The notes beneath the pieces were generated by a model, which was not told the origin of the DNA, ran no database searches, and saw nothing but the letters and a program-made list of their open reading frames with translations. The position numbers and the translations under genes were made by a program. This document shows, piece after piece, positions 9,674 through 25,062 of a stretch of 64,000 nucleotides of DNA. Each line of letters begins with the position of its first letter. The first letter of the stretch is position 1. Source of the DNA: Actinomycetota bacterium (lineage in GTDB: Bacteria > Actinomycetota > Thermoleophilia > Solirubrobacterales > 70-9); the NCBI GenBank assembly GCA_018268415.1, contig JAFDWO010000134.1, positions 1 to 64,000 of the forward strand, in the 5' to 3' direction.

Positions 9674-10969
9674 CTACGGGTAGAGCCCGCGGCTGCGGTG
9701 GGCGTCGGCGACTCGCTCGACCGCGATCGCCATTGCGGCGTGGCGCATGTCGACGTCGCGGTCACCTGCCCGGTCGACGACCTCGGAGAAGGACTTACGC
9801 ATCGTGATGCGGAGGCGGCGGAAGACTTCTTCGGCGCTCCAGGAGAGGGACTGCATGTTCTGCACCCACTCAAAGTAGGAGACGACCACGCCGCCGGCGT
9901 TGGCGAGGATGTCGGGGATCACCGTGGCGCCGCGGTCGCGCAGGATCGCGTCGGCGGCGGGGGTGGTGGGGCCGTTGGCGCCCTCGACGATCAGGCCGGC
10001 GCGGACGGCGTCGGCGTTCTCCGCGGTGATCGCGCCCGAGAGGGCGGCCGGGATCAGGACGTCCACCTCGGCGGCGAGGAGCGCGGCGTTGGTGATCGGC
10101 TCACCGCCGGGGAAGTCGTTGACGCGGCCCGCCTCCTTGAGGTGGTCCAGCAGCAGGGTCGGGTCGAGGCCGGCGGCGCAGAAGGTGCCGCCGTGGACGT
10201 CGCTGACGGCCACCACCCGGAGGCCGGCGTCGTGCAGGTAACGGGCGGCGTGGGCGCCCACCTTGCCGAACCCCTGGATCGCCACGGTCGCCCCGCGCGG
10301 CGCGATGCCCTGGCGCTCCAGCCACCAGAGGGCACAGTCGGCCACCCCGCGCGAGGTCGCGCCGGCCCTCCCGGCGGACCCGCCCAGCGAGACCGGCTTG
10401 CCGGTCACCACCCCGGGGACCGAGAAGCCCGCGTTCACCGAGAAGGTGTCGAGGATCCAGGCCATCGTCTGCTCGTCGGTCCCGACGTCGGGCGCGGGGA
10501 TGTCCTTTTCCGGTCCCAGCAAGGGCAGGACCTCGTTGACGTAGCGCCGGGTCAGGCGCTCCAGCTCGGGCGGGCTGGTGGTCCGGGGGTCGATCGCGAC
10601 TCCCCCCTTCGCCCCGCCGTAGGGGATGTTCGTGAGCGCCGACTTCCAGGTCATCAGCATCGCCATCGCGCTCACCTCGTCGAGGTCGACGTCGGGATGG
10701 AAGCGGATGCCGCCCTTCGCCGGTCCCCGCGAGTAGTTGTGCTGGACGCGGTAGCCCTCGACCACTTCCACTTCGCCGTCGTCGCGGCGCACCGGGACGG
10801 AGACGGTGAGCGAGCGCCGCGGCGTCGCCAGCAGTTCGTGGAGCCCGTCGGAGAGGCCCAGTTCGCGCGCCGCCGTGGCCAGCTGGTGACGGGCCGCCGC
10901 GAGCGGACCGTCCGCCGCGGCGAGCGCCGTCGCCCCCGCCGCCATCGGCTCGACGCCGGCGGTGCTCAC
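9674..10969 (-). CDS. Glu/Leu/Phe/Val dehydrogenase (glutamate dehydrogenase)
   Basis: 431 aa, typical hexameric glutamate dehydrogenase length. The catalytic region is present: YRVQHNYSRGPAKGGIRFHP, then KSALTNIPYGGAKGGVAIDP with the catalytic lysine, then PAPDVGTDEQTMAWILDT. The Rossmann domain carries ATVAIQGFGKVGAHAA. The GTG start overlaps the stop of the preceding SDR gene, so it is the last, translationally coupled gene of the ABC/SDR operon. It probably handles ammonia or amino groups released by that pathway, or deaminates a specific amino acid. Confidence 0.93.
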   Translation of the reverse strand: MSTAGVEPMAAGATALAAADGPLAAARHQLATAARELGLSDGLHELLATPRRSLTVSVPVRRDDGEVEVVEGYRVQHNYSRGPAKGGIRFHPDVDLDEVSAMAMLMTWKSALTNIPYGGAKGGVAIDPRTTSPPELERLTRRYVNEVLPLLGPEKDIPAPDVGTDEQTMAWILDTFSVNAGFSVPGVVTGKPVSLGGSAGRAGATSRGVADCALWWLERQGIAPRGATVAIQGFGKVGAHAARYLHDAGLRVVAVSDVHGGTFCAAGLDPTLLLDHLKEAGRVNDFPGGEPITNAALLAAEVDVLIPAALSGAITAENADAVRAGLIVEGANGPTTPAADAILRDRGATVIPDILANAGGVVVSYFEWVQNMQSLSWSAEEVFRRLRITMRKSFSEVVDRAGDRDVDMRHAAMAIAVERVADAHRSRGLYP

Positions 10970-11730
10970 TGGGCGAGCCAACCCCCGTCCACCACCAGCG
11001 GATGCCCGGTGACGAACGAGGCGGCATCCGAGCAGAGCCAGACGACCGCCTCGGCGATCTCCTCGGGGGCCCCGAGACGGCCGATCGGCTCGCGCTCGAC
11101 ATAGGCCTCCTCGGCGACCCGCGGGTCCCCCTCGAGCTCGGCGAAGAAGGTCTCGAGCTGCGGCGTGCGGGTGGCTCCGGGGCAGATGGCGTTGATCCGG
11201 ACCCCGTCCTCGGCGCACTCGAGCGCCGCCGCCTTGGTCAGGCCGACGACCCCGTGCTTGGCGGCGACGTACGCGCACATGCCGCGGACGCCGACCATCC
11301 CGAAGGTCGACGCGGTGTTGACGATCGCTCCGCCTCCCTGGGCTTTCATCTGCGGAATCTGGTGCCGCAGACAGCTCCAGACGCCGGTCAGGTTCAGGGT
11401 CAGCAGGCGCTCCCAGTCGGCGCGGCTGTAGTCCTCGATCAGCTGTGGCGAGCCGCCGTGCCCGGCATTGTTGTGGGCCCAATCGATCCGCCCGTAGAGC
11501 TCGACCGCGCGGGCGACGAGATCGCGGACGTCGTCCTCCTCGGTGACGTCGACCCGCATGAAGGCGGCCTTGCCGCCCTCCTCCTGGATCTGCTCGACCG
11601 TCCCCGCGCCGCCTTCCTCGTCGATGTCGGAGACGATCACCGCGGCGCCGGCGCGGGCGAAGGCGAGGCTGCTCGCCCGGCCGATCCCGGAGCCGGCGCC
11701 GGTCACCATCGCGACCCGTCGCTCGCTCAT
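10966..11730 (-). CDS. SDR-family oxidoreductase
   Basis: 254 aa classical short-chain dehydrogenase. TGAGSGIG near residue 10 binds NAD(P); HNNAG (about residue 87) and YVAAK (about 153-157) are the structural and catalytic motifs, with VNTAS supplying the active-site Ser. The C-terminal WLCSDAASFVTGHPLVVDGGW is typical. It overlaps its neighbours by 4 bp on both sides. Acts on an alcohol or ketone intermediate of the pathway served by the upstream importer; substrate unknown. Confidence 0.9.
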   Translation of the reverse strand: MSERRVAMVTGAGSGIGRASSLAFARAGAAVIVSDIDEEGGAGTVEQIQEEGGKAAFMRVDVTEEDDVRDLVARAVELYGRIDWAHNNAGHGGSPQLIEDYSRADWERLLTLNLTGVWSCLRHQIPQMKAQGGGAIVNTASTFGMVGVRGMCAYVAAKHGVVGLTKAAALECAEDGVRINAICPGATRTPQLETFFAELEGDPRVAEEAYVEREPIGRLGAPEEIAEAVVWLCSDAASFVTGHPLVVDGGWLAQ

Positions 11731-12485
11731 TGGCTCAGGTACCCGCCGTCGATCGCCATGCCGTGACCGGTGACGAACGAGGCGGCGTCGGAGCAGAGCC
11801 AGACGGCCGCCGCGGCGACCTCCTCGGCTTTGCCGAGCCGGCCCATCGGATGGGCCGCGAGCATCAGCCGGCGGGTGTCGGGGCTGTCCTCGGTCAGGCG
11901 CGCGGGCATCGCCGTGTCGATCACCCCGGGCAGGACCGCGTTCACCCGGACTCCCTTCGATGCGTACTCGAGCGCCGCCGCCTGGGTCAACCCCATGACC
12001 GCGTGCTTGGAGGCGACGTAGGCCGACATCGACGGGCTGGCGACGACGCCGAGCCCCGAGGAGGAGTTGACGATCGCGCCGGCGCCGGCGCCCACCATCG
12101 CCCGCAGCTCCTCCTGCATGCAGTTCCAGACGCCGACGAGGTTCACCGACAACACCCGCTGCATGTCCTCGTCGGGGTAATCGAGGAACTCGCGGAGCGG
12201 CCCGGAGATCCCGGCGTTGTTGAACGCACAGTCGAGGCGACCGTGGGCCTCGACCACCGCGCCGACCGCATCGGCCACCGCCGCGTGATCACTGACGTCG
12301 GCGACCGCCGTCGAGGCCTCGCCGCCGACCTCGCGGACCGCGGCAGCCGCCCGGTCGGCCCCCTCCTCCTCGGCATCGAGCAGGTGGAGCCGGGCACCTC
12401 CACGGGCGAAGGCGAGTGCGGCGGCCGTGCCGATCCCACCCCCCGCGCCGGTGATCAGCGCGACCTTCCCTTCGAGAGCCTTCAA
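11727..12485 (-). CDS. SDR-family oxidoreductase
   Basis: 252 aa classical SDR and a clear paralogue of the next gene. TGAGGGIG (residue 12), FNNAG (about 88) and YVASK (about 154) are present, as is the C-terminal WLCSDAASFVTGHGMAIDGGY. ATG overlaps the stop of the permease gene. Two SDRs in tandem suggest two successive oxidations, for example of two hydroxyl groups of a sugar-like moiety; this is inference. Confidence 0.9.
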   Translation of the reverse strand: MKALEGKVALITGAGGGIGTAAALAFARGGARLHLLDAEEEGADRAAAAVREVGGEASTAVADVSDHAAVADAVGAVVEAHGRLDCAFNNAGISGPLREFLDYPDEDMQRVLSVNLVGVWNCMQEELRAMVGAGAGAIVNSSSGLGVVASPSMSAYVASKHAVMGLTQAAALEYASKGVRVNAVLPGVIDTAMPARLTEDSPDTRRLMLAAHPMGRLGKAEEVAAAAVWLCSDAASFVTGHGMAIDGGYLSQ

Positions 12486-13501
12486 TCGATACCTCCGGCA
12501 GTTCTTCGGGCGCGCAGGCTTTCGTAGGCCTGGCGCGCGTTTGCGATTCGGTCCCTGATCAGCGGCGCGGTCAGCAGGACGGCGACCACCAGCAGCAGCC
12601 CGGTGACGATTTCCGTGACCCAGATCGGGCTCGCCAGGATCCCGAACGAGGCCTGCAACAGGCTCATCGCGAGGGCGCCGGCGGCGATGCCCGCGGCGGT
12701 TCCCTGCCCGCCGGCGACGGTGACGCCGCCGATCAGGGCGGCCGTGGCGGCGAAGACCAGCGGCGCGACCCCGGGATTGGTGACGGCGGTGGCGAGGCTG
12801 TAGGCGTTGAGCCCGCCCGCGAGGCCGGCCAACATCCCGGACAGCGTGAACACCCCGATCAGCACCAGGTTGACCCGCACGCCGACGGTGCGGCTGGTCT
12901 TGCGATCGCCGCCGACCGCCCGCACCGCCCGGCCGAGCCGGGTGAACCCCATCAGCAGGGCGACGAGGACGAAGGCGGCGAGGACGATGAGGCTGTGGCG
13001 GGAGAAGATTTCGGCGATCGGTTCGTCCAGCTTGATCGCCGTGTCGACGTTCAGGTAGGAGACGCTCTTGTCGTGGCCGAGGGTCCCGGTCAACCCGATC
13101 ATGGTGATGTAGCCGCCGAGCGTCACCGCCATCGAGTTGAGCCGCAGGAAGGCGATCAGCGCCCCCTGGATCAGGCCCGCCAGGGCACCGATGGCGACGA
13201 CCAGGACGATGCCGAGCGCGGCCGAGCTTTCCCCCAGCTTCACCGCCAGCATGCCGCCGAGGGCGAACATCCCGAGCGTCGAGAGGTCGAACTCGCCCGC
13301 GATCATCGTCAGCCCGAGGGCCAGCGCGACGAGGCCGTAGGTGCCGAACGTCTGCAGCACCGAGTAGATCGAGTAGCTGCCGATCGGGTGGCCCTGCGAG
13401 GTGGGCACGATCAGGAAGAACCCGATCATCGCGAGCAGGAACAGCACCGGGCTGAGCACCTCGGGGCTCAGCGACCTGAGCCGCTTCAGCGCCGCGCTCA
13501 T
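12482..13501 (-). CDS. Ribose-type ABC transporter permease
   Basis: 339 aa, RbsC/BPD_transp_2 family, with about 9-10 hydrophobic segments. The conserved cytoplasmic region GRAVRAVGGDRKTSRTVGVRV and the preceding ALGLTMIAGEFDLSTLGMFALGG motif are those of sugar/nucleoside importers. It is overlapped by 4 bp with the second permease, so the transporter probably uses a heterodimeric channel with the product of 13498-14487. Confidence 0.9.
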   Translation of the reverse strand: MSAALKRLRSLSPEVLSPVLFLLAMIGFFLIVPTSQGHPIGSYSIYSVLQTFGTYGLVALALGLTMIAGEFDLSTLGMFALGGMLAVKLGESSAALGIVLVVAIGALAGLIQGALIAFLRLNSMAVTLGGYITMIGLTGTLGHDKSVSYLNVDTAIKLDEPIAEIFSRHSLIVLAAFVLVALLMGFTRLGRAVRAVGGDRKTSRTVGVRVNLVLIGVFTLSGMLAGLAGGLNAYSLATAVTNPGVAPLVFAATAALIGGVTVAGGQGTAAGIAAGALAMSLLQASFGILASPIWVTEIVTGLLLVVAVLLTAPLIRDRIANARQAYESLRARRTAGGID

Positions 13502-14487
13502 GCGCGCTCTTTCGCGAGCAGTTGGACGATGACGACGGCGGCCAGCACGACCAGGCCGCGGACCAACACCTGCACGCCGGTGCTGTAACCGCGCAGGAGC
13601 AGCATGTCGGAGACGACCGCGATGAAGAGCGCCCCGAGCACGGTGCGGTAGATCGCCCCCTTGCCGCCGGTGATCGCGATCCCCCCGACCAGGACGGCGG
13701 CGATCGCCTGGAACGTGTACGTCTCGCTGGTCAGCAGGGTCGCATTGCCCTGGCTGGCTCCGAGCAGCACCCCGGCCACGGCGGCGCAGGCACCGGCCAA
13801 GGCGAAGGCGGCGACGGCGACCGGCGTCACCCGCAGCGCGCTCGCCCGCGCCGCCCGCAGGTTTTCACCGACGAGGTAGCTTTCGCGACCGAGCCGCGAG
13901 CGCCGCAGCCAGAACTCCAGCGCCAGCGTGATCGCGATCAGGACGAAGATCGAGAGCGGCAGCCCGAACACCGTCCCGGCAAGAAAACGGAAGCTCGCGT
14001 CGTGGGGCGGGTAGACGGTCGACTGGTTGGTGAGCCGCTGGGCGAGCCCGAGCTGCAGGGTGCCGAAGGCGATCGTGACGATGATCGGGTTCGCCCGGAA
14101 GCCGCCGATCAGGAAGCCCTGCAGGGCACAGACGGCCGCCCCGGCGAGGATCGTCAGGACGATCGCCGCCACCGGGCCGAAGGTCAGCGCCGCCAGGAAC
14201 AGCATCGTCGTCACCACCACCGTGGTGCCGAGCGTCACCGAGACCAGGTTGCCGCTGATCGTGATGCAGGACATCCCCACCGCGACGATCCCGATGATCC
14301 CCATGCTGGCGAGGATCGCCTTGAAGTTCCCGTAGGAGAGGAACCCCTGCGTGCTGACCGCCCCGTAGACGAGGACGCCGAAGACGACCACCGCGCCGAG
14401 CAGGAGGGCGAGGTCGCCGCGGGAGAGCCGCTCGAGCGGCGAGCGGGACACGCCCGGCCCCATCACCGCGTGCTCGGTGGCACTCAC
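13498..14487 (-). CDS. Ribose-type ABC transporter permease
   Basis: 329 aa from a GTG overlapping the ATPase stop (GTGA). RbsC-family features: GMSCITISGNLVSVTLG, NPIIVTIAFGTLQLGLAQRLT and the terminal GGIAITGGKGAIYRTVLGAL. The longer frame to 15126 runs antisense-like through the ATPase gene and has no homology. Forms the membrane part of the importer together with the next permease. Confidence 0.9.
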   Translation of the reverse strand: MSATEHAVMGPGVSRSPLERLSRGDLALLLGAVVVFGVLVYGAVSTQGFLSYGNFKAILASMGIIGIVAVGMSCITISGNLVSVTLGTTVVVTTMLFLAALTFGPVAAIVLTILAGAAVCALQGFLIGGFRANPIIVTIAFGTLQLGLAQRLTNQSTVYPPHDASFRFLAGTVFGLPLSIFVLIAITLALEFWLRRSRLGRESYLVGENLRAARASALRVTPVAVAAFALAGACAAVAGVLLGASQGNATLLTSETYTFQAIAAVLVGGIAITGGKGAIYRTVLGALFIAVVSDMLLLRGYSTGVQVLVRGLVVLAAVVIVQLLAKERA

Positions 14488-16007
14488 GCCACCGCCTCGC
14501 GATCGTTCGGCGCGTGGGTCATCTCGCTGACCACGCGGTGGGTCGAGGTCTCGGTGCGGCGGGCGACGGCGACGACCCGACCGGAGAACATCGTGACGAT
14601 GGTGTCGGCGAGGTCGAAGATCTCGTCGAGCTCGGTCGAGGCGAAGAGGACCCCGACGCCCGCGTCGGCGGCGGAGCGCACCAGGTCGTGGATGTCGGCC
14701 CGACCGCCCACGTCGACCCCGCGCGTCGGCTCGTCCAGCAGCAGCAGCCGGGTGCCGGGCTGCTCGAGCAGGCGACCGAGGAAGACCTTCTGCTGATTGC
14801 CGCCGCTGAGCTCGGAGACGGCGCTCCGGCGTCGCTCCTCGAGGCCGATCGACGCGGCAAGCCGGCCCGCGACGGGCTCGACCCGACGCTCCAGCACGAG
14901 GCCGCCGCTGCTCATCTCCTTCAACCGCGTGGCGACCAGGTTGTCGCCGACGGAGCGGCCGAGGAAGAGGCCTTCGGACTTGCGGTCGTTGGAGAGGAAG
15001 GCGAGCCCGGCCGCCCTCGCGACCCCGGGCGAGCCGAGGCGCAGGCGCCGCCCGTCCACGCGGACCTCCCCGCTCGCGCGCGAGCTGTGGCCGGCGAGGG
15101 CGCGGATCACGTCGGTGGCGCCACAACCGACCTGGCCGGCGAGGGCGACGATCTCCCCCGGGCGGACGTCGAGGTCGAGCCCGGGGACCCGCGGCGGGAT
15201 CGCCAGGCCGCGGATCGTCACCGACCCGCGCCCCTCCTCGGCGGGGGGCTCGCGCCGGAGCGCGCGCTCGGGCTCGTGGCCGAGCATCAGCTGGATCAGC
15301 TCCGCGCGGTCGAGCTCCGTGGTCTGCGCCGTGCGCACCAGTTGACCATCACGGAGCACGGTGACCGAGTGGCAGAGTTCCATCACCTCGCCCAGGCGAT
15401 GGGAGACGAAGAGCACCGCGGTCCCGTCCGCGGACACCGAGCGGACCGCGTCGAAGACGTGGCCGATCTCGGCCTCCGAGAGGGTCGCGGTCGGCTCGTC
15501 GAGGATCAGGATCCCGGCGTCGTGGCCGAGCGCCCGGGCGATCTCGACCAGCTGGCGCTCCCCCATCGCCAGCGAGCTCACCGGGCGGGCCGGGTCGAGC
15601 GAGTCGAGCCCCACCCTCCGCAGCAGGTCGCGCGCCCGCGACCGGGCCGCCCGCCGGCGATTGAGGAACGGCTGGTCGGCCGACCCGAGCATCAGGTTGT
15701 CGGCGACGGAGAGGACGTCGATCAGGCTGATCTCCTGGTCGACGAGCGCGACGCCGAGCCGCTGGGCCTGTTGGGGGCTGCGGGCCAGGGCCTCGGCGCC
15801 GTCGATCTCGATCTGGCCCTCGTCGGGCCTGACGAGCCCGGCGAGGATCTTCACCACGGTGCTCTTGCCGGCCCCGTTGTGGCCGCAGAGGGCGTGGATC
15901 TCGCCGGGTCGCAGGGTGAGCGAGAAGTCCGCGAGGGCCCGGACGGCACCGTATGACTTGCAGACACCCTGGAACCGAAGTCGCTCAGGGCTCGTTGCAG
16001 TGCTCAC
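14484..16007 (-). CDS. Ribose-type ABC transporter ATPase (two ABC domains)
   Basis: 507 aa with two nucleotide-binding domains, as in RbsA/MglA. Domain 1 has Walker A GHNGAGKSTVVK (about residue 43) and Walker B ILILDEPTA; domain 2 has a degenerate P-loop GQVGCGATD and the signature ELSGGNQQKVFLGR followed by LLLLDEPTRGVDVGG. This asymmetry is normal for the family. Fourth gene of the operon starting with the RibBA-like gene. Confidence 0.94.
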   Translation of the reverse strand: MSTATSPERLRFQGVCKSYGAVRALADFSLTLRPGEIHALCGHNGAGKSTVVKILAGLVRPDEGQIEIDGAEALARSPQQAQRLGVALVDQEISLIDVLSVADNLMLGSADQPFLNRRRAARSRARDLLRRVGLDSLDPARPVSSLAMGERQLVEIARALGHDAGILILDEPTATLSEAEIGHVFDAVRSVSADGTAVLFVSHRLGEVMELCHSVTVLRDGQLVRTAQTTELDRAELIQLMLGHEPERALRREPPAEEGRGSVTIRGLAIPPRVPGLDLDVRPGEIVALAGQVGCGATDVIRALAGHSSRASGEVRVDGRRLRLGSPGVARAAGLAFLSNDRKSEGLFLGRSVGDNLVATRLKEMSSGGLVLERRVEPVAGRLAASIGLEERRRSAVSELSGGNQQKVFLGRLLEQPGTRLLLLDEPTRGVDVGGRADIHDLVRSAADAGVGVLFASTELDEIFDLADTIVTMFSGRVVAVARRTETSTHRVVSEMTHAPNDREAVA

Positions 16008-16041: not shown

Positions 16042-17100
16042 TCACGGGCAGACGTTTTTCGCCAGCCATTCGTCGACGTTTTTGCTGGTGATGCGGGTCT
16101 CTTTGCCTTCGATCTCTTTCGCGATCGACTTGCCTTCGAGGAGTTCGACGCCGAGCTTCCCGGCGGCTTCGCCTTCTTCGACCGGCGACTGCGAGGCGGT
16201 GCCGAACTGTTCGCCGCGTTTGATCGATTCGAGGCCGATCCGGTAGCAGTTGCTGCCGGTGACGATCAGCCCTTTGTCCTTGACCCCCACCGGCATGCCG
16301 GATTCCTTGGCGGCCTGGATGATCCCGACGGCCTGGTTGTCGGCCATCCCGTAGGCGGCCTGGATCCCGCCGGAGCCCTGGTACTTGGCGAAGAGCTGCT
16401 GGGCGATCTTCTGCGACGTGTTCTCGTCCCAGTTGCCATCTTCGACCGCGACGATCTTGAGGCCGGGCACTTCGGCCAGCTTCTTTTCGAAGGCCTTCAT
16501 CCGCAGTTCCACCTGATACATCCCCGAGGTGCCGGTGATGGCGATCACGTTACCGCTGGTCTTGCCCTCTTCCTTCAGGCCTTCGATGATGTTTTCGGCG
16601 GCGAAGGTGCCGAGCTGTTCGTGGTTGGCCTGCTGGGACGCGGCGATGTAGGGCGCGATGATCCCCGGAGGTTCGCTCATGTTGATGACCGGGATCCCGG
16701 CGGCCTTCGCCCGGTTCAGGGCGGGGACGACGGCGCGGAATTCGTCGGCCAGGAGCATGATCAGGGCGGGTTTGGCGGCGACCGCGCGGTTCAGGTTTTC
16801 GACCTGCAACTGGGTGTTGTACGGATCCTGCAGGTAGGTGACCTGGGCGCCCGCCGCTTCGAGGGCATCGATCACCGCGTGGTTGTTGGCTTTCGCCCAG
16901 GGTCCGACGTCGCCGGAGCCGACCAGGAAGACGGTCTTGCCTGATGCCGACCCGGATTCGTCGCCGGACCCTGAGGACGTGGTCGACGATGAGGAGGAAC
17001 CTGAACTGGAGCCGCAGCCGGCGACCAGGGCGGCAAGCGAAACCAACAGAACCAGGACCAGCGATGGCTTTCGCCATCCTGAGTTGCGGTGCGACGTCAT
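16042..17100 (-). CDS. Sugar-type ABC transporter substrate-binding lipoprotein
   Basis: 352 aa. A signal peptide with lipobox LVAGC (Cys about residue 29) and a Ser/Gly-rich linker precede a Peripla_BP_4 (ribose-binding-like) domain. ATG overlaps the flavin-reductase stop by 4 bp. Glu is largely GAA here whereas neighbouring genes use GAG, consistent with high expression of a binding protein. The ligand is unknown; ribose, nucleoside or another small polar ligand are family precedents. Confidence 0.92.
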   Translation of the reverse strand: MTSHRNSGWRKPSLVLVLLVSLAALVAGCGSSSGSSSSSTTSSGSGDESGSASGKTVFLVGSGDVGPWAKANNHAVIDALEAAGAQVTYLQDPYNTQLQVENLNRAVAAKPALIMLLADEFRAVVPALNRAKAAGIPVINMSEPPGIIAPYIAASQQANHEQLGTFAAENIIEGLKEEGKTSGNVIAITGTSGMYQVELRMKAFEKKLAEVPGLKIVAVEDGNWDENTSQKIAQQLFAKYQGSGGIQAAYGMADNQAVGIIQAAKESGMPVGVKDKGLIVTGSNCYRIGLESIKRGEQFGTASQSPVEEGEAAGKLGVELLEGKSIAKEIEGKETRITSKNVDEWLAKNVCP

Positions 17101-17669
17101 TCGTTCTCCTCCTGCGGGGCGTGAGTGGCATTTGCGTTGGACTTGCTGCTGGTCACCGCGGCCCCCTGTGCCGCCGTGGCGATCTTCCCGTAGTCGCCGC
17201 GGAAGAAGACGATCGGCGACCTTCCCTCGTTGGCCTCCAACGAGGCGACCCGGGCGACCACGATGGTGTGGTCTCCCGCCGGATGTTCGTCCTCGATCTC
17301 GCACTCGATCCAGGCGACCGCGTCGTCGATCGCGGGGCCGGCCGGGCGGGGGTGCCAGGACAGGTCCGCGAACCGATCGGCGCCGCGCCGGGCGAACTGC
17401 CGCGAGACGTCGGCGTGGTCCTCGGCGAGGACGTTCAGGCAGAGCCGCCCGGCGTCCCTGAGGCCCGGCCAGGTGGTCGAGGTGCGGGCGGGACAGAAGA
17501 GGACGAGCGGGGGCTCGATCGAGACCGAGCTGACCGAGTTGCACGCCATCCCCAGCGGCTCCCCGGTCGGGTCGAAGGCGGTCACGGCCACGACCCCGGT
17601 CGGCAGGTGGCCGAAGACCTCCCGGTAGGCCCGGGCGTCGAGGGGCGGGGCGCCGACGGCGTCGGTCAC
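17097..17669 (-). CDS. Flavin reductase (HpaC-like)
   Basis: 190 aa, the usual length for the FMN-binding flavin reductase family. Visible motifs: FGHLPTGVVAVTAFDPTGEPLGMACNS, SIEPPLVLFCPARTSTTWPGL, FCLNVLAEDH-like RLCLNVLAEDHADVSRQFA and the terminal GDHTIVVARV. Such enzymes supply reduced flavin to two-component monooxygenases; the two luciferase-like proteins encoded upstream in this cluster are the likely partners. GTG start overlaps the RibBA-like stop. Confidence 0.9.
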   Translation of the reverse strand: MTDAVGAPPLDARAYREVFGHLPTGVVAVTAFDPTGEPLGMACNSVSSVSIEPPLVLFCPARTSTTWPGLRDAGRLCLNVLAEDHADVSRQFARRGADRFADLSWHPRPAGPAIDDAVAWIECEIEDEHPAGDHTIVVARVASLEANEGRSPIVFFRGDYGKIATAAQGAAVTSSKSNANATHAPQEENE

Positions 17670-18751
17670 GCGATCCCCTCGCCCGTGACGACGGCGCAGC
17701 CGTAGGAGCGCAGCGACTCCTCGGCCGCCGCCGAAGGGTTGATCAGCCCCACCTCGTCGACCTCGAGCGCGCGCAGGATCTGCGCCGCGGCGAGGTAGGT
17801 CTCGGGGCCGACGCGGGTGGCGCCGCACTCGGTGAACCCGAGGCGCTCGGAGGGGCGCAGGTAGACGAGCACGCCGCGTCCCAGGTCCTGGAGCGTCGCC
17901 AGGGACTCCTCCAGGCGGGCGGCGCAGGAGCAGTTGGTCGACCCGAAGACGTCGCCGGCCTGACAGGCGGGATGGATCGCCACCTGGACCGGCCCGTTGG
18001 CGGCGACGTCGCCGACCCGCAGCGACATCAGCTCGGTCCCGTCGAGCTCCCCTTCCCATCCCTGACAGTCGAAGACGCCGACGGCGGTGGGGAGGCGGGT
18101 TTCGACCACCAGGCGCACCAGTTGCTCGGTGCGCAGGCGGTGGCGGGCCAGCTCGGCGATGTCGATCGACGCCAGGCCGTGGTCCTCGGCGAAGAGCTCG
18201 ACCCGCGTGGTCATCGGGGCGGCGAGGCCGCCGGCGTCACCGAGGCGACTGAAGGCGGCGACCTGGCCGGGGACGCCGGCCAGCCGGGCGAGGTCGAAGG
18301 CGGCCTCCGCGAGGTCGACCTGGCCGAGCACCCCGTGCTCGTGGCAGACCACCGGGAAGACGTGCCCGGGGCGGATGAAGTTCTCGGCCTTGGCGTCGGG
18401 GGCGGCGAGCCTGCGGACGGTCTCGGCGCGGCCCCGATCGGAGACCGTGTCGCTATCGGCTTGGTCGGCGTCGACGGAGACCGTGAACTTGCGATCGGCC
18501 GCCGTCAGCATGTCGGGCAGCTGCAGGTACTCGGCCCGGCTCTCGCTCAGCGCCACGCAGATCATCCCCGAACCGTGCTCGAGCATGAAGCGGACGTCGG
18601 CCTGGTCGAGCCGCGCCGCGGCGAAGACGATCGCGGCGATCCGATGCTCGCCATCGTGGACCAGCACCGGGTGGCCGGAGGCAAGCTCGGCAATGGCCGA
18701 AGGGGCCGGCGACCGGGGTCGCACGGTGGCTGACGCAGATACATAGGTCAT
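17666..18751 (-). CDS. Divergent RibBA-like protein (DHBP synthase-like plus GTP cyclohydrolase II-like)
   Basis: 361 aa with the architecture of RibBA: residues about 1-195 resemble DHBP synthase and about 200-361 GTP cyclohydrolase II. The C-terminal domain keeps the zinc cysteines (ACQAGDVFGSTNCSCAARL). Catalytic motifs look changed: the N-terminal DRENEGD, TTGISA, HTEA and MNEDG motifs are absent, and RQEGRGIGL is replaced by RPSERLGF. It heads a catabolic operon rather than a riboflavin operon. I infer a repurposed hydrolase acting on a heterocycle; URC1 of the uracil-catabolic route is a precedent for a cyclohydrolase II relative in degradation. Riboflavin synthesis is unlikely. Confidence 0.78.
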   Translation of the reverse strand: MTYVSASATVRPRSPAPSAIAELASGHPVLVHDGEHRIAAIVFAAARLDQADVRFMLEHGSGMICVALSESRAEYLQLPDMLTAADRKFTVSVDADQADSDTVSDRGRAETVRRLAAPDAKAENFIRPGHVFPVVCHEHGVLGQVDLAEAAFDLARLAGVPGQVAAFSRLGDAGGLAAPMTTRVELFAEDHGLASIDIAELARHRLRTEQLVRLVVETRLPTAVGVFDCQGWEGELDGTELMSLRVGDVAANGPVQVAIHPACQAGDVFGSTNCSCAARLEESLATLQDLGRGVLVYLRPSERLGFTECGATRVGPETYLAAAQILRALEVDEVGLINPSAAAEESLRSYGCAVVTGEGIA

Positions 18752-18862: not shown

Positions 18863-19786
18863 TCAGTCGGCCAGGCCGCGCAGACGTCCGATCAGGTCGA
18901 GGTACGTCGACAGGCTGGTGTTGGCGCGGTCGAAGGTGACGTCGAAGAACAGCCGCTCGATGCCCGCGTCCCGCAGCACCTCGACGTCTTCGCCCACCTG
19001 CTGCCAGTTGCCGATCCCGATCGGGCGGTCCTCGTCGGTGATCCGGGCCTCGGAGAGCTGGACGTTGCAGCGGACCACCGTCGGCAGGTCGGCCCCGGCC
19101 CGGCCGGCGTCGTCGGCGGCGCGGCGGAACTCATCGCGCATCGCGACGATCGCCGCGGCGGGAGCGCAACAGCCGGTGAAGCCGTCCGCCAGCCGGCCGC
19201 CGCGCCGCAGCGCGGCGCCGCTGAACGCCCCCATGTAGAGCGGCGGGTGCGGCGCCTGCACCGGCTTCGGGCCGAAGACGGACGCCGGGACGTCGACGAA
19301 CTCGCCATGGAACTCGACCGGGTCGGTGCCCCAGAGGGCCTTCAGCGCCTCGATGTACTCGGCGCTCATCCGGCCGCGGGTCCCGAACGGCACCCCCGCC
19401 GCCTCGAACTCGTCCTCGGACCAGCCGACCCCGATGCCGACGTCGAGCCGGCCGTCGCTCAGCTGGTCGACCGTCGCCAGCCGCTTCGCCAGCAACGCGG
19501 GCGAGTAGAACGGGAGGTTGAGGACGCTGACGCCGAGCCGCACGCGCTCGGTCAGCGCGGCGACGTAGGTGAGCACCGAGAGGTGCTCGTAGACCGTGTC
19601 GTACTGGGGCTCCAGGCGGCCGTCCGGGGTGGGCGGATAGGGCGTCTTCGGGTCGACCGCCTTGATCAGCCGGTCCAGCGTCCAGACCGAGTCGTAGTCG
19701 AGCGCCTCCGCCGCCAGCGCGGCGGCGCGGATGTTGGCCCGGCTCGCGACCGGACCGACGTGCGGGAGGGCGATACCCAGTTCCAT
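18863..19786 (-). CDS. Luciferase-like (LLM class) flavin-dependent oxidoreductase
   Basis: 307 aa TIM-barrel monooxygenase of the luciferase-like family. Typical strings are VWTLDRLI, RVRLGVSVLNLPFYSPALLAKRLATVDQLSDGRLDVGIGVGWSEDEFEAAGVPF, and APHPPLYMGAFS. It may use F420 or reduced FMN; the nearby flavin reductase gene favours FMN. It is the last gene of the LLM-BKACE-cyclase-LLM operon, 42 bp after the cyclase gene. Confidence 0.88.
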   Translation of the reverse strand: MELGIALPHVGPVASRANIRAAALAAEALDYDSVWTLDRLIKAVDPKTPYPPTPDGRLEPQYDTVYEHLSVLTYVAALTERVRLGVSVLNLPFYSPALLAKRLATVDQLSDGRLDVGIGVGWSEDEFEAAGVPFGTRGRMSAEYIEALKALWGTDPVEFHGEFVDVPASVFGPKPVQAPHPPLYMGAFSGAALRRGGRLADGFTGCCAPAAAIVAMRDEFRRAADDAGRAGADLPTVVRCNVQLSEARITDEDRPIGIGNWQQVGEDVEVLRDAGIERLFFDVTFDRANTSLSTYLDLIGRLRGLAD

Positions 19787-19828: not shown

Positions 19829-20794
19829 CTAGAAGATCGCGACGGGGGCCCCTGGACCCCCGGCCGCCCCCCGGAACGGCACCGGGGGGGCGACGATCAT
19901 GAACTGATAGCGCCGGCGGGCGGCGCACTGGCGGGCCAGCTGGTCGAGCTGGAACATCTCGCCGAGCAGGAGGCCCATGTAGACGATGCTGACGATGTGG
20001 AAGGGCTGGTAGCTGTCGACCAGCTCGTTGGGACGGACCTCGACCCCCCAGGTATCGGTGGCGACCGCCGCGACCTGCCGCTCGGCCAGCCAGGGGACGG
20101 TGAAGAGGCTGAGCCCGGGGGCCGCGCCGCCCGCGAACTCACCCCAGCCCTCGCGCAGGCAACGGCCCATCTGGCCGGTCCTGATCAGGAGGACGTCGCC
20201 GGGTTCGATCTCCACCCCGCCGAACTCCGCCGCCAGGTCGAGGACCGTGTCGGTGATCGCGAAGCCGTCCTCGAGGTACTCGACCCCGAGGGCCGCCGGG
20301 AGGTCGAGCAGCACCCCGCGCCCCGCCACCCGGTCGGCGAGGGTCTCCAGGCCGCAGCGCGAGGCGCCCTCGGCGCTCACCGCGGTGGCCGCGAACCCGT
20401 TGTACATCTGGCCCTCGTGGAAGACGTGGGCGAGGCCGTCCCAGTGGGTGCCGGAGTGCAGGTGCAGAACCACGGTGTCGTCGGCGAAGCCGACCCCGTG
20501 CGGGAACTCGGCCCCGTTCCAGCGTTGTAGCCCGGCCGCGTGGTCGGCGCCGGTGGAGGTCGAGTAGCGGAGGCAGTTGAAGCGGCCGTTCGCGCCGCGC
20601 TGCGGCCCGTCCTGGCTGAAGGGCAGGCAGAGCGAGACCGTCTCCCCGGTGGCGACGAGGTCGGCGGCGGCGCGCAGCCGCTCGGGCCCGATCAGGTTCA
20701 GCGTCCCGAGCTCGTCGTCCTCGCCCCACCGTCCCCAGTTCGAGTACCGCCGGGCGAGGTCGGCGATCGGGTCGTCTGCCTGGCCGGCGGGCAT
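19829..20794 (-). CDS. Cyclase-family metal-dependent hydrolase
   Basis: 321 aa, cyclase superfamily (kynurenine formamidase / isatin hydrolase type). The metal-binding signature HSGTHWDGLAHV (about residue 108) matches H-x-G-T-H-x-D-x-x-x-H. Other family strings: DDELGTLNLIGPERLRAA and VEIEPGDVLLIRTGQ. Members hydrolyse amide or lactam bonds of N-heterocycle-derived compounds. ATG at 20794 lies 2 bp after the BKACE stop codon; the longer frame to 21223 is spurious. Confidence 0.9.
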   Translation of the reverse strand: MPAGQADDPIADLARRYSNWGRWGEDDELGTLNLIGPERLRAAADLVATGETVSLCLPFSQDGPQRGANGRFNCLRYSTSTGADHAAGLQRWNGAEFPHGVGFADDTVVLHLHSGTHWDGLAHVFHEGQMYNGFAATAVSAEGASRCGLETLADRVAGRGVLLDLPAALGVEYLEDGFAITDTVLDLAAEFGGVEIEPGDVLLIRTGQMGRCLREGWGEFAGGAAPGLSLFTVPWLAERQVAAVATDTWGVEVRPNELVDSYQPFHIVSIVYMGLLLGEMFQLDQLARQCAARRRYQFMIVAPPVPFRGAAGGPGAPVAIF

Positions 20795-20796
20795 CG

Positions 20797-21738
20797 CTAG
20801 GCGGCGATCGCGGTCGCCCCGGCGCCCTTCAGCGCCAGCATCCGGCGCGCCTCCGCGGGGCTCGCCGGCTCCATCGACAGCTCGCGGAGGATGCGGACGA
20901 TCTTCTCGACCTGCTGGGCGTTGGTCTCGGCGAGGCGGCCGCGTTCGAGGTAGATGCTGTCCTCCAGGCCGACCCTGACGTGTCCGCCGAGGAGCGCCGA
21001 CTGGGTGGCGAGGCGCGTCTGGTGGCGCCCGGCGCCGATCACCGAGAGGAGATAGTCGTCGCCGAAGAGCCGGTCCGCCACCGCCTTCATGTGCATCAGG
21101 TTGGTGGCCTCGGCGGCGATCCCGCCGAGCACGCCCATCACCGCCTGGAGAAAGAGCGGCGGCTTCAACACGCCCGCCTCGAGGAAGTGGGCCACCGTGT
21201 ACAGGTGGCCGACGTCGTAGCACTCGAGCTCGAACCGGGTCCCGAGGGCGCCGACGCCGGCGACGATCGCCTCGATGTCGGCGAAGGTGTTCTTGAACAC
21301 GTAGTCGCGGGTTTCCTCGATGTAGGGGCGTTCCCAGTCGTGGACGAACTCGGTGAGGTTGCGCAGCAGCGGGAAGGTGCCGAAGTTGAGGCTCCCCATG
21401 TTGAGCGAGCAGAGCTCCGGCGCAAAGCGCCGGACCGCGGCCAGGCGCCGGTCCATCGGCATCCCCTGGCCGCCCCCGGTCGAGAGGTTGATCACCGCAT
21501 CACAGCCCGCAGCGATCTCGGGCAGGAAGCGGGCGAAGACCTCGGGGTCGGCGGTCGGCCTGCCGTCCTCGGGATCACGGGCGTGGAGGTGGAGGATCGC
21601 CGCCCCGGCACCCGCCGCGCCGACCGCCGCGGCGGCGATCTGCTCGGGGGTGACCGGCAGGTGCGGGGTCTGTGCCGGCACGTGCATCGCGCCGGTGACG
21701 GCACAGCTGACGATCACCACCTCGCCTTTGCTCGACAT
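20797..21738 (-). CDS. Beta-keto acid cleavage enzyme (BKACE, DUF849)
   Basis: 313 aa, full length for the 3-keto-5-aminohexanoate cleavage family. Visible: ILHLHARDPEDGRP (metal-binding HLHARDP, about residue 48), NLSTGGGQGM, and VRVGLEDSIYLERG with the metal-ligand Glu. The family cleaves a beta-keto acid with acetyl-CoA to acetoacetate and an acyl-CoA. In this cluster it would act late, after ring opening. It follows the LLM gene by 15 bp. Confidence 0.93.
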   Translation of the reverse strand: MSSKGEVVIVSCAVTGAMHVPAQTPHLPVTPEQIAAAAVGAAGAGAAILHLHARDPEDGRPTADPEVFARFLPEIAAGCDAVINLSTGGGQGMPMDRRLAAVRRFAPELCSLNMGSLNFGTFPLLRNLTEFVHDWERPYIEETRDYVFKNTFADIEAIVAGVGALGTRFELECYDVGHLYTVAHFLEAGVLKPPLFLQAVMGVLGGIAAEATNLMHMKAVADRLFGDDYLLSVIGAGRHQTRLATQSALLGGHVRVGLEDSIYLERGRLAETNAQQVEKIVRILRELSMEPASPAEARRMLALKGAGATAIAA

Positions 21739-21753
21739 GAGCGGTCCCCCGGC

Positions 21754-23034
21754 TCAGGCGTTGGCGCTGTCCGCGGTCGCGTAGGTGGTGAGCTCGTCGA
21801 GCGCCGGCTTGACGTGCTCCATGAACACTTCGAGGTTGCGGACGACGCTGTCGTAGGGCATCTGCGCGTAGTGGAAGATCAGGACCGCGTACTCGGCCGG
21901 CAGCTCTTCCCACTGGGCGACGAACTGGTCACGGATTTCGTCCGCCGTGCCGTGCGTCCAGAGGCCACAGTCGATCACCGACTGGACCGGGTCGTCGGGG
22001 TTGTAGGCCATGTGCGGGGTGAGCGGCTGGTAGAGGTTTTTGTACATCTCCGCGTCATAATCGGCGATCGCCTGGCGGGCGTCCTGCTCGGAGTCGCCGA
22101 CCTGCATCCAACGGACCAGCGCCTGGTTCTGGCCCAGGGCGAAGTCGAATCCTGCTTCGCGGGCGCGTTCGGCGTAGACGCCGCCGAACTTGCCGGCGCG
22201 ACCGGAGCCGGAGAAGTAGGCGGGGATGAAGCCGCGGCCGCCGCAGTACTCGACCGTTTCGAGGCTGGCGGCGGAGGCGACGAACACCGGCGGGTGCGGC
22301 CGCGTGTAGGGAGCCGGGACCACGCTGACCTTGTGCAGTCGGCCGTCCTCGCCGATCTCTCCGGGGGCGCCGAGGCGGCTGCTCGGATCGCGCATCCCCC
22401 AGTCGATTCCCTCGTCGTAGGGGAACGGGACCTCCCAGCGCTCGGAGCGGTAGTTGAAGGAGTCCTCGGTCCAGGCCTTCAGCACCAGGTCGATGTGCTC
22501 CTCGAAGACTTCGCGGTTGACCTGGTCGATGCTGGTCTCTTCGGCGAGCCGCTCGGTCGACATCGCCTCGCGCTCGGCGTCGTCCATGCCGGCCGGGGAG
22601 AGGGTCGCGCGCACCCCGTAGTGCTGGCCGAGGACGTTGGTCCAGCGCGACTGGTAGCCGCGCGAGAAGCCGACGAAGGAGCGGCCACCGGTCAGGTGGT
22701 CGATCATCGCGGTCTCCTCGGCGACCCGGAACGGGTTCTGGGCGCTCATCGTGTAGCCGAGCGAACCGATCCGGATGCGGTCGGTGACGCCGGCCCAGTT
22801 GGCGTTGAGGACGCTGGGGCTGGGCCCGACCTCGTAGCCCTCGGAGTGGAAGTGGTGCTCGATGCAGGAGGCTCCCCAGAACCCGAGCCGCTCGGCCTCC
22901 TTGACCAGGCCGGTGACCCCGTGGACGACCTCCTGGTAGCGCTCGGAGTTGCGTCCGAGGGGCCGCAGTTCAGCCCTTTCCTCCTCGCTCTTGGCGGGAA
23001 TCGTCGGATAGAGCTGAAGGATCGGCTTGATCAT
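21754..23034 (-). CDS. Luciferase-like (LLM class) flavin-dependent monooxygenase
   Basis: 426 aa, longer than the 307-aa paralogue and more like alkanal/ring-cleaving monooxygenases. Features: GFWGASCIEHHFHSEGYE, RIRIGSLGYTMSAQNPFRVAEETAMIDHLTGGRSFVGFSRGY, and HPPVFVASAASLETVEYCGGRG. The ATG at 23034 has AAGGGG upstream; an earlier in-frame start at 23115 would run through the promoter motif region. First gene of its operon and divergent from the GAF-PucR regulator gene. Confidence 0.9.
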   Translation of the reverse strand: MIKPILQLYPTIPAKSEEERAELRPLGRNSERYQEVVHGVTGLVKEAERLGFWGASCIEHHFHSEGYEVGPSPSVLNANWAGVTDRIRIGSLGYTMSAQNPFRVAEETAMIDHLTGGRSFVGFSRGYQSRWTNVLGQHYGVRATLSPAGMDDAEREAMSTERLAEETSIDQVNREVFEEHIDLVLKAWTEDSFNYRSERWEVPFPYDEGIDWGMRDPSSRLGAPGEIGEDGRLHKVSVVPAPYTRPHPPVFVASAASLETVEYCGGRGFIPAYFSGSGRAGKFGGVYAERAREAGFDFALGQNQALVRWMQVGDSEQDARQAIADYDAEMYKNLYQPLTPHMAYNPDDPVQSVIDCGLWTHGTADEIRDQFVAQWEELPAEYAVLIFHYAQMPYDSVVRNLEVFMEHVKPALDELTTYATADSANA

Positions 23035-23126: not shown

Positions 23127-23151
23127 CAATGTCTTGCGAGACAAAGAATGG
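23127..23151. promoter_or_regulatory. Putative operator between LLM operon and GAF-PucR regulator
   Basis: CAATGTCTTGCGAGACAAAG... contains the inverted repeat TGTCT-TGCG-AGACA and closely matches 18789-18814 (CAATGTC, GAGAC, AAAGAA, ATGG in the same order). The divergent gap 23035-23196 contains no other gene. The adjacent regulator is the natural candidate for binding both sites. Confidence 0.6.
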
Positions 23152-23184
23152 GGCGTTTCGTTAGCTGACTCGTCAAGCCAAGGC

Positions 23185-23190
23185 TATGAT
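23185..23190 (+). promoter_or_regulatory. -10 box of leaderless GAF-PucR gene
   Basis: TATGAT ends 6 nt before the GTG at 23197; no Shine-Dalgarno sequence is present. This fits a leaderless transcript. Confidence 0.5.
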
Positions 23191-23196
23191 CGCCGT

Positions 23197-25062
23197 GTGC
23201 CGAGCCTTCCCCGGACCGAGCTGCCGACCTTTCACGAGGTGCTGCAGAGCCTCGGGCGTCGCGCCCCGCTGGAGGAGACGCTGGACACGATCGCGACGCA
23301 CGTCACCGAGGTCATCCGGTTCAGCTTCTGCGCGATCATCCTGCCCGACCCCGATGGCCGCCGGGTGCACCTGAAGGGCGCCCACGCGCTGCCGGATCGC
23401 TATGCGAGCAGGCTGAACGAGATCCACCTGGCGCCGATCGGATCGGGCGAAAACGCCGGCTCGCCGACGCAGCGGGCGATGGAGGGCGGGCGGACCGTCG
23501 TCCTCGACGACGTGCTCGACGATCCCTCGTTCGCCCCCTGGACCGGGATGGCCGAAGAATTCGGCTATCGCTCCCTGGTCTCGGTGCCGTTGGTCGCGCA
23601 GGGCGCGGTGATCGGCGTCCTCAACGGCTACTCGCGGGTGCCGCGCCACTTCACCGAGACCGAGCTGGCGGCGGTCGAGACGCTCGCCGCGCAGGCCGCG
23701 ATCGCGATCCACCTCGCGACCCTGGTCGACGAACAGGAGGCGACGATCGACACGCTGCGCCGGGTCAACGACGAACTCGAGCACCAGCGGCAGATCCTCG
23801 AGCGCTCGCACGAGATCCACCTGCGGCTGACCGACGCGGTGATCGAAGGAGCAGACTTCCGCGCCGTCGCCGAGACGCTGTCCGGGCTGATCGACCGCCC
23901 GGTGGCGGTGATCGACGCGGGCGGCAGGACGATCTGCACCTCGGACGAGGGCGAGGCGGAGAGCCTCGAAGCCCTGGTCGCCACCGCGATGCCCCTCCTC
24001 CGCCAGGACGGAAGCGCGGCCTCGGGCAAGACGCACGCGGTGCCGATCGACGGGACCGTCGCCGTGGTGGGGCGGATCGCGATCGGTGCCGAGCTGCTCG
24101 GTTACGTGGTCGTCGCGGGCGGCGATGAGCGCGAGGGGGCGCTCGACGAACGGGCGGTCGAGCACGCCGCCACGGTCCTCGCCCTGGAGATCGTCAAGGA
24201 GCGGGTCGCCCGGGCCACCGAGGAGCGGCTGCGCGCGGACTTCATCTTCGACCTCGTCCACGGCCGCGACGACGTCGGCCGGCGGGCCGGCGAACGGGCC
24301 CGCCACTACGGCATGTCGCTGGAGGAGCCGCACCGGGTCATGGTGGTCGAACTCTGCGACTGGGCCGGGCACCTGCGGCGGTTGGAGCTCTCCGAGGAGG
24401 GCGGCCGCAGCCTCAAGCAGCGGCTCCTGCGACTGATCGACGACGTCCTCGCCGAGAGGGCGCCGGGCTCGCTCTCCAGCACCGTCGGCGACCAGATCAC
24501 GATCGCCGCCCCGACCGGCTCACACGCCGACGAGGTCGAGTACCTGAAGAAGGTCCGCGACGACGTCGCCCGCCGCGCCGGTCGCCTCGCCCCGGCGCTG
24601 CGGATCGTCGCCGGCATCGGCAGCCCCACCCCCGCCCCGGGCTCCTTCGCCTCCTCCTACCAGGAGGCCATCCAGTGCCTCGAGCTCCTCAACCGCCTCG
24701 GCGACTCCGCCGACGCCCTCGCGGTCGAGGAGCTGGGCGTCCTCCGCCTCCTCCTCGACACCAAGAACCCCGAGGAGCTCCGCGCCTTCGCCCGCCGCAC
24801 CCTCGGCCCGGCCCTCGAACGCGACGAGAAGAACGACGGCGCCCTCGTCTCCACCCTCTTCGCCTACATCGACCGCAGCTGCGACGTCCGCACCACCGCC
24901 ACCGAGCTCTACGTCCACGCCAACACCGTCAAGTACCGCCTCGCCAAAGTCGAAGAGGTCTGCGGCCTCGACCTGAAGGACCCGAACGACCTCCTGAAAG
25001 CAAAGATCTCCCAGCTCGTCCTGAAGCTGACGAGCCCGGGGGTGGCCTCGAGAGTGGCATAG
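23197..25062 (+). CDS. GAF-domain PucR-type transcriptional regulator
   Basis: 621 aa. An N-terminal GAF domain (about residues 25-180, VIRFSFCAIILPDPDGRR...GYRSLVSVPLVAQGAVIGVLNGYS) is followed by a short coiled linker. A central PucR-type region (GGD-like) and a C-terminal PucR HTH (RTTATELYVHANTVKYRLAKVEEVCG, about residues 570-600) follow. The reading frame is open far upstream, but homology begins at the GTG at 23197, just after a TATGAT box. Divergent from the LLM operon; probably senses a pathway intermediate through GAF. Confidence 0.92.
   Translation: MPSLPRTELPTFHEVLQSLGRRAPLEETLDTIATHVTEVIRFSFCAIILPDPDGRRVHLKGAHALPDRYASRLNEIHLAPIGSGENAGSPTQRAMEGGRTVVLDDVLDDPSFAPWTGMAEEFGYRSLVSVPLVAQGAVIGVLNGYSRVPRHFTETELAAVETLAAQAAIAIHLATLVDEQEATIDTLRRVNDELEHQRQILERSHEIHLRLTDAVIEGADFRAVAETLSGLIDRPVAVIDAGGRTICTSDEGEAESLEALVATAMPLLRQDGSAASGKTHAVPIDGTVAVVGRIAIGAELLGYVVVAGGDEREGALDERAVEHAATVLALEIVKERVARATEERLRADFIFDLVHGRDDVGRRAGERARHYGMSLEEPHRVMVVELCDWAGHLRRLELSEEGGRSLKQRLLRLIDDVLAERAPGSLSSTVGDQITIAAPTGSHADEVEYLKKVRDDVARRAGRLAPALRIVAGIGSPTPAPGSFASSYQEAIQCLELLNRLGDSADALAVEELGVLRLLLDTKNPEELRAFARRTLGPALERDEKNDGALVSTLFAYIDRSCDVRTTATELYVHANTVKYRLAKVEEVCGLDLKDPNDLLKAKISQLVLKLTSPGVASRVA

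Follow-up and report, generated by a model that had tools for sequence, protein, structure and literature searches.

Gene Content, Partial Conservation, and a Proposed Catabolic Role of an Apparently Undescribed Luciferase-like Monooxygenase, Cyclase, and BKACE Gene Run from an Actinomycetota Bacterium

Several described systems share parts with a thirteen-gene run found in a 64,000-nucleotide stretch of contig JAFDWO010000134.1 (here, the window) from an Actinomycetota bacterium (assembly GCA_018268415.1). The run encodes two luciferase-like monooxygenases (LLM1 and LLM2), a flavin reductase (FRED), a cyclase-family hydrolase (CYC), a beta-keto acid cleavage enzyme (BKACE), two short-chain dehydrogenases (SDR1 and SDR2), an importer, a RibBA-like protein (RIBX), and a glutamate dehydrogenase (GDH). 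Its genes seem to make up an entire, as yet undescribed, oxygen-dependent route, in which a small ring compound would be imported, its ring opened, and the product cut to a CoA-linked acid and acetoacetate.

The anaerobic phloroglucinol pathway of Clostridium scatologenes (PGR, DPGC, TfD, and TAL) resembles the run in its cyclase-family ring opener, its dehydrogenase, and its acetoacetate-releasing BKACE. In contrast, the run has no PGR-type NADPH motif, no TfD-type dehydrogenase, and a methionine at the position of TAL Trp16, and it adds oxygenases, a flavin reductase, and an ATP-binding cassette (ABC) importer. The type II Baeyer-Villiger (diketocamphane) monooxygenases, which work with Fred, are like LLM1 in fold and in taking FMNH2 from a separate reductase. 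LLM1 is only 15–18% identical to them, and the window holds reductase, hydrolase, and BKACE in one operon. The oxidative deoxyribose/deoxyribonate pathway of Pseudomonas simiae also combines a hydrolase (a lactonase), an SDR, and a BKACE in one operon with transporters (PMC6365646, cited passages); those passages show no oxygenase, and the transporters there belong to the MFS type, whereas the window has an ABC importer. The riboflavin lyase RcaE shares the luciferase-like fold with LLM1 and differs from it by a chain rank of 50 and 14% identity. RibBA and RibBX resemble RIBX, which has both RibBA domains and a RibBA-like structural model, but motifs in each of the two catalytic domains have been lost from the window copy.

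No paper on this gene combination was found in a literature search, which is not proof of absence in print. The main text of a comparative-genomics paper discussing Microbacterium sp. BR1 (PMC6868719) contains neither "luciferase" nor "keto-5-aminohexanoate". For the long cyclase-family enzymes (5ibz) and for this LLM subfamily (405 relatives), no substrate turned up in the searches made. The preliminary description had not recognised the combination as a known pathway, and it is indeed a real and partly conserved catabolic unit that appears to be undescribed.

Gene families were assigned by Pfam scans, which placed every family named in the preliminary description at or near its reported position. 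NCBIfam models were run on ten proteins; there was no NCBIfam family for CYC. Several raw open reading frames were too long at the 5' end, so trimmed starts are given. The G+C content of the window is 72%. The features are as follows.

23197-25062, plus strand: PUCR, GAF-domain PucR-type regulator (GAF, GGDEF_2, HTH_30); the GTG start at 23197 is one of three candidates
21754-23034, minus strand: LLM1, luciferase-like flavin-dependent monooxygenase, 426 aa (Bac_luciferase)
20797-21738, minus strand: BKACE (PF05853, 353.9 bits; NF053538, 469.9 bits)
19829-20794, minus strand: CYC, long cyclase-family hydrolase, 321 aa (PF04199; HSGTHWDGLAH)
18863-19786, minus strand: LLM2, second luciferase-like protein (Pfam), TIGR03619 subfamily (220.1 bits, cut-off 166.9)
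17666-18751, minus strand: RIBX, degenerate RibBA-like protein, 361 aa (DHBP_synthase and GTP_cyclohydro2)
17097-17669, minus strand: FRED, flavin reductase (PF01613, 145.9 bits); GTG start at 17669, 4-bp overlap with RIBX
16042-17100, minus strand: SBP, sugar-type periplasmic binding protein (Peripla_BP_4)
14484-16007, minus strand: ABC transporter ATPase (ABC_tran, two stretches)
13498-14487, minus strand: PERM1, permease (BPD_transp_2); start picked by overlap
12482-13501, minus strand: PERM2, permease (BPD_transp_2)
11727-12485, minus strand: SDR1 (adh_short_C2; YVASK; LLDAE after the second strand)
10966-11730, minus strand: SDR2 (adh_short_C2; YVAAK; VSDID after the second strand)
9674-10969, minus strand: GDH, last gene of the run (ELFV_dehydrog); 4-bp overlap with SDR2

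The thirteen minus-strand genes run head to tail from 23034 to 9674 in the order LLM1, BKACE, CYC, LLM2, RIBX, FRED, SBP, ABC, PERM1, PERM2, SDR1, SDR2, and GDH, and PUCR is divergent from them. The intergenic gaps in run order are 15, 2, 42, 111, −4, −4, 34, −4, −4, −4, −4, and −4 bp. Seven of the twelve junctions are therefore 4-bp overlaps, including that of the FRED frame with the RibBA-like open reading frame, and the largest gap (111 bp) lies upstream of RIBX. Two co-oriented operons and one GAF-PucR regulator had been proposed. The co-orientation and the regulator stood, but by gene spacing the layout looks more like one 13-gene operon-like run than two operons.

Conservation was studied with LLM1 as bait. 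Genome contigs were scanned with a pattern from a four-sequence alignment, which gave 405 confirmed relatives, and the best 80 were kept as loci. Up to 10 kb of sequence on either side of LLM1 in each locus (less where a contig ended) was compared with the 14 window proteins at a coverage of 60% or more. In the cultured Microbacterium sp. BR1 (L058), 12 of the 14 window genes (the run plus PUCR) have relatives, at 34–64% identity and with the window order kept within two blocks. The BR1 order is FRED (34%), SBP (59%), ABC (56%), PERM1 (57%), PERM2 (49%), SDR1 (52%), and SDR2 (64%), then a divergent PucR gene (37%), then LLM1 (63%), BKACE (61%), CYC (60%), and LLM2 (59%). At 34%, BR1 FRED is a family match whose orthology is not certain; its frame continues, by eye, into a GntR-like domain. 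Downstream of BR1 LLM2 lie an enoyl-CoA-hydratase-like frame (by eye) and a third LLM (Pfam). No relative of RIBX or GDH was found in L058 or in the 17-kb and 15-kb stretches extending its two sides. BR1 SDR2 (L058, 6916-7669) is split over two frames, by a sequencing error or a real break.

Since BR1 keeps relatives of 12 of the 14 genes in order within two blocks, the gene run is confirmed as more than a chance association. The preliminary description would have abandoned its proposal if homologous clusters never co-occurred, and this is not the case: the unit recurs in BR1 and, in part, elsewhere. Among the loci compared, the complete gene set is known to us only from the window and BR1. 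At E 1e-100, LLM1 was found in only 1 of 295 Microbacterium genomes searched, BR1 itself, so the full set is a rare accessory unit in that genus, perhaps horizontally moved.

Smaller parts of the unit occur more widely. CYC relatives of 45% identity or more lie near LLM1 in 8 of the 80 loci, seven on the same strand and five starting within 121 bp downstream. CYC was found at E 1e-70 or better in only 9 of the 396 genomes sampled from the phylum. Given this rarity, and about 21 kb sampled from a genome of 4–5 Mb, our own estimate of the chance expectation is far below one of 80 loci. LLM1 itself was found at E 1e-60 or better in three of the 396 genomes: the host, G238 (58%), and G054 (38%). 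LLM2 relatives lie near LLM1 in 3/80 loci and FRED relatives (40% or more) in 5/80. RIBX relatives (30% or more) lie near LLM1 in 8/80, six of them within 238 bp downstream. A Streptosporangiales metagenome-assembled genome (MAG; L061) has the core LLM1-CYC-LLM2 adjoining a PucR gene (29%). A MAG labelled Bacillota (L055) has PucR-LLM1-LLM2, with a 60% CYC elsewhere in the genome on a 4.5-kb contig. PUCR relatives of 37–50% lie within 2.6 kb of LLM1 in L058, L055, and L056. The kept loci include many Alphaproteobacteria MAGs and six Dehalococcoidia/Chloroflexi loci. Among the plasmid matches to LLM1 listed (20 of 378 records), identities are 23.5–28.6%.

A looser parallel cluster was found in G054, a member of the host's order (locus L032). 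It contains an LLM1 relative (34%), then a cyclase-family protein, a BKACE (34%), an adenine-deaminase-like protein, and an SDR (41%), and its importer is related to that of the window (SBP 52%, ABC 55%, PERM1 53%, PERM2 48%). The cyclase-family protein gave no BLAST match to CYC. The adenine-deaminase-like protein (G054:C4, 5861-7726) scored 320.1 bits, under the cut-off of 472.5.

From gene content, gene order, conservation, and motif status, we infer an aerobic catabolic operon with an oxygenation-hydrolysis-oxidation-BKACE route, to which a probability of roughly 40% is given; the reactions, their order, their control, and the substrate class are all predicted. The PucR-type protein probably controls the operon. 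The sugar-type ABC importer would take up a small polar, probably carbocyclic, compound. FRED would feed FMNH2 to LLM1, and LLM1 may insert one oxygen beside a ring ketone in a Baeyer-Villiger type reaction. CYC, a cyclase-family metal enzyme, would hydrolyse the resulting lactone or activated ketone and thereby open the ring. One or both SDRs would oxidise the hydroxy acid to a beta-keto acid, which BKACE would convert with acetyl-CoA to acetoacetate and an acyl-CoA. LLM2 may carry out a second redox step, whose placement in the route is not fixed. RIBX would derive from a RibBA that once provided the oxygenase with flavin, and would since have lost that chemistry. GDH is probably accessory.

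The proposed route is supported because BR1 keeps relatives of 12 of the 14 genes and because CYC, rare in the phylum, recurs in the LLM1 flanks. It is further supported by the high rank of type II Baeyer-Villiger chains in the LLM1 fold search, the CYC metal motif, the probable NAD-type SDRs, and the BKACE equivalog in both the window and BR1. Parts of the route also have precedents in the cited passages of PMC6365646, which describes a lactonase-SDR-BKACE operon for deoxyribonate, of PMC6352141, in which an LLM with a separate reductase acts as a ketolactonase, and of PMC5395668. The last of these proposes, for SAR202, that LLMs are type II Baeyer-Villiger monooxygenases whose lactones are opened spontaneously or by an esterase, and that such LLMs attack recalcitrant organic matter. 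An operon that combines an importer, a hydrolase, dehydrogenases, and a BKACE would supply a full worked example of such an attack. Since BR1 is in culture and has relatives for 12 of the 14 genes, the pathway can be tested directly in this strain, and this would give both the long cyclase and the LLM families a reaction.

Against the Protein Data Bank (PDB), the LLM1 sequence gave ten weak luciferase-type matches. An AlphaFold2 model of LLM1 (mean predicted local distance difference test score, pLDDT, 89.9) was searched by Foldseek, with 50 chains shown. Ranks 3, 6, 8, and 9 were type II Baeyer-Villiger monooxygenase chains (4uwm, 5aec), including 3,6-diketocamphane monooxygenase. Sulfoquinovose, EDTA, and pyrimidine monooxygenases came later among the matches. 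The model thus favours luciferase or Baeyer-Villiger chemistry for LLM1. RcaE, which the preliminary description had named as a precedent, was not among the ten phmmer matches, and its chain (5w4z) ranked 50th at E 1.4e-12, compared with E 5e-21 for the type II Baeyer-Villiger monooxygenase; the precedent was therefore dropped. LLM1 has a luciferase fold and the operon has a separate flavin reductase, so a two-component oxygenase with predicted flavin dependence, as proposed earlier from the families, remains the best reading. As for F420 as a cofactor of LLM2, the CofH pieces in the host, one of which lies at the end of contig C38, scored far below the cut-off, BR1 also fell below it, and one of three genomes passed; the family also matched 11 of 14 controls.

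CYC carries the motif HxGTHxDxxxH as HSGTHWDGLAH, which we take to be the metal motif of cyclase-family hydrolases. Its one PDB match, 5ibz, is titled "uncharacterized protein". BKACE scored 353.9 bits against PF05853 (cut-off 24.8) and 469.9 bits against the equivalog NF053538, 3,5-dioxohexanoate:acetyl-CoA acetone transferase (cut-off 430), which BR1 BKACE also passed (461). The residues following the second strand, LLDAE in SDR1 and VSDID in SDR2, suggest NAD-type enzymes under the SDR cofactor rule as we assume it; NAD-type SDRs would fit the oxidative direction. As family-based reaction classes, hydrolytic ring opening by CYC and chain cleavage by BKACE are well founded, and both remain the best reading, as first put forward.

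The same pair of enzymes raises a phloroglucinol-like alternative. In this case, LLM1 would form a cyclic 1,3-dione by hydroxylation or dearomatisation, CYC would hydrolyse a C-C bond in a retro-Claisen reaction like dihydrophloroglucinol cyclohydrolase, and BKACE would cleave the 3,5-dioxo acid like triacetate acetoacetate-lyase. C. scatologenes uses a cyclase-family enzyme to open dihydrophloroglucinol and a BKACE to cleave triacetate (PMC10470551, cited passages). The NF053538 match of the window BKACE agrees with such logic, and a cyclase-family gene also adjoins a BKACE on the Porphyrobacter plasmid pYT40 and in G054. The same source describes TR(S/N) as the NADPH motif of phloroglucinol reductases, Trp16 of TAL at the position of Kce Glu14, and Trp20 and Tyr22 in CsDPGC, the dihydrophloroglucinol cyclohydrolase. 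Neither SDR1 nor SDR2 contains a TR[SN] string, the operon genes include no 3-hydroxyacyl-CoA-dehydrogenase-type TfD, and the residue after the shared TGA in BKACE is methionine, unlike Kce Glu14 or CsTAL Trp16, which does not identify the protein as a triacetate acetoacetate-lyase. The reductive phloroglucinol pathway was weakened by the SDR motif and the BKACE residue. The phloroglucinol pathway as such is not well founded, and the phloroglucinol-like logic was judged unlikely.

Oxidative breakdown of a cyclitol or another polyhydroxylated carbocycle was also considered, in which the substrate would be imported, oxidised by SDRs to an inosose and a diketone, and opened by CYC. The importer is of the sugar type, but models of known sugar-binding proteins gave SBP at most 38.7 bits. 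On a Streptomyces chartreusis plasmid (L028, 7769-9921), a 61%-identical CYC overlaps the end of an upstream gene that passes the scyllo-inosose 3-dehydrogenase (IolM) model with 469.4 bits (cut-off 450). This is a single hint of polyhydroxylated carbocycles, from the one S. chartreusis context inspected; a second record has the same CYC match. To our knowledge, inositol routes require neither an oxygenase nor a BKACE. The cyclitol alternative was held to be distinctly unlikely.

Several observations weigh against the proposed oxygenation-hydrolysis-oxidation-BKACE route. The best fold match of LLM1 was an Agrobacterium monooxygenase and the second was RslO1, with luciferases among the best; since all 50 chains shown are only 13–20% identical, the fold does not fix the reaction. 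Three plasmid BKACE proteins scored higher on NF053538 (509–518); one lies beside a cyclase-family gene, and the annotated surroundings of the other two include neither a cyclase nor an LLM. Since proteins in other settings score higher, the 3,5-dioxohexanoate label does not prove the substrate. BKACE, SBP, ABC, PERM1, PERM2, SDR1, and SDR2 (45% or more) were each found in 1/80 loci, always BR1, and the tie of BKACE and the importer to LLM1 therefore rests mainly on BR1. Among the LLM1 loci, 48 of 80 had no match covering 40% to CYC, BKACE, SBP, LLM2, FRED, or RIBX. The nine phylum genomes with CYC contain it at ten places, two of which (the window and G238) are beside LLM1; the other eight regions have no partner genes except distant SDR and ABC matches. 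In Mycobacterium pinniadriaticum (L057), the LLM1 relative adjoins extradiol and Rieske dioxygenase genes and a P450. In marine Alphaproteobacteria, LLM1 neighbours include an FmdA-type amidase, SDRs, a metallo-beta-lactamase-rhodanese protein, and another LLM. LLM1 appears to be a versatile oxygenase. The loci lacking the tested partners, together with the absence of GDH and RIBX from BR1, would fit genes of several unrelated pathways lying adjacent by happenstance. Against this stand the two ordered blocks in BR1 and the seven 4-bp overlaps, and happenstance was considered extremely improbable.

RIBX was scored for four RibBA motifs: the acidic loop and HTEA in the DHBP synthase domain, together with the cysteines and GRGIG loop in the GTP cyclohydrolase II domain. 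It lacks the acidic loop (HRIAAIV versus RENEGDL), HTEA, and the GRGIG loop, and retains the three cysteines, which presumably bind zinc; it is thus not a bifunctional RibBA by these motifs. Its model is RibBA-like (mean pLDDT 76.6), with best matches to 4i14 and to RibBX, 6mnz. Near LLM1 in the 80 loci, seven of the eight RibBA relatives have all four motifs. The exception is a Thermoleophilia MAG (L063), in which the cysteines are present by eye, though missed by the motif pattern. The simplest ancestral role of a RibBA next to LLM1 is FMN supply. No FMN riboswitch was found by Rfam at the gathering threshold in the window or in seven loci (142,521 bases).

RIBX had been proposed as a ring opener. 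This role was rejected for the present route owing to the motif loss in the window copy, the intact motifs of most relatives near LLM1, and the lack of a RIBX relative in or around the BR1 cluster. In the earlier reading it would act as a second ring opener in the oxidative opening of an N-heterocycle (flavin, pterin, or nucleoside). The retained cysteines leave room for some metal chemistry, a histidine-utilisation block adjoins the operon, and an adenine-deaminase-like gene occurs in the G054 cluster. The same RIBX results speak against such a substrate, and many folds are nearer to the LLM1 model than RcaE. The N-heterocycle substrate suggested earlier thus found little support beyond these hints, and was regarded as very unlikely. 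GDH, to which ammonia handling within the pathway had been assigned, was found at 30% identity or more in 0/80 LLM1 loci, despite its 4-bp overlap with SDR2 in the window, and that assignment was given up.

A second host locus (L036; G000:C35, about 1525-14269), outside the 80, has an ABC importer, a flavin reductase (62%), a 31% LLM1 relative, a half-degenerate RibBA, and an AMP-ligase (by eye). That half-degenerate copy, the RIBX of the locus, shares 67% identity with the normal RibBA of the host but no longer has the cyclohydrolase loop. RibBA paralogues with lost catalytic motifs were seen in L041, L045, L046, L050, L051, L054, and L063 (the host's genus and order, and the Thermoleophilia MAG), with more than one origin in the tree. 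In that tree (40 of 48 rows; three duplicates and five short rows left out), the degenerate label required four changes, at least two of them forced. The window copy stood beside intact LLM1-linked RibBA; its place is unsure, because the support of 85/83 was not starred and the branch was 6.94. The ratio of nonsynonymous to synonymous substitution came to about 0.53 both in L041/L050, a degenerate pair, and in L036/L038, compared with 0.30 in one intact pair. At the G+C content concerned, synonymous counts are skewed, so these values are no more than a hint at relaxed constraint.

A link between RibBA decay and a nearby flavin reductase was rejected. Among 18 RibBA rows in 20 regions chosen for a RibBA relative, short and contig-end rows included, ten had a flavin reductase match within 4 kb; all four motifs were intact in 4/10 of these versus 2/8 of the others. 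One speculative idea, to which we give little credence, is that RibBA copies taken into LLM/flavin-reductase operons to supply flavin repeatedly lose riboflavin chemistry, and that the products of some become a new working part of the oxygenase system, for instance a hydrolase acting on the oxygenated substrate or an FMN carrier that bears a metal. The window operon would then illustrate this most clearly, as part of an undescribed, oxygen-dependent pathway that handles a carbocyclic compound.

Two further minus-strand gene groups flank the operon. The block adjoining it at 25550-31796 is histidine-utilisation-like and comprises a FlK-type thioesterase, HutF, an M20 peptidase, an amidohydrolase, urocanase, and an IclR regulator. 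The region at 1222-8953 contains FAD-oxidase, FAD-binding, and Fe-S/CCG genes (glycolate-oxidase-like by domain), malate synthase, and a second PucR regulator.

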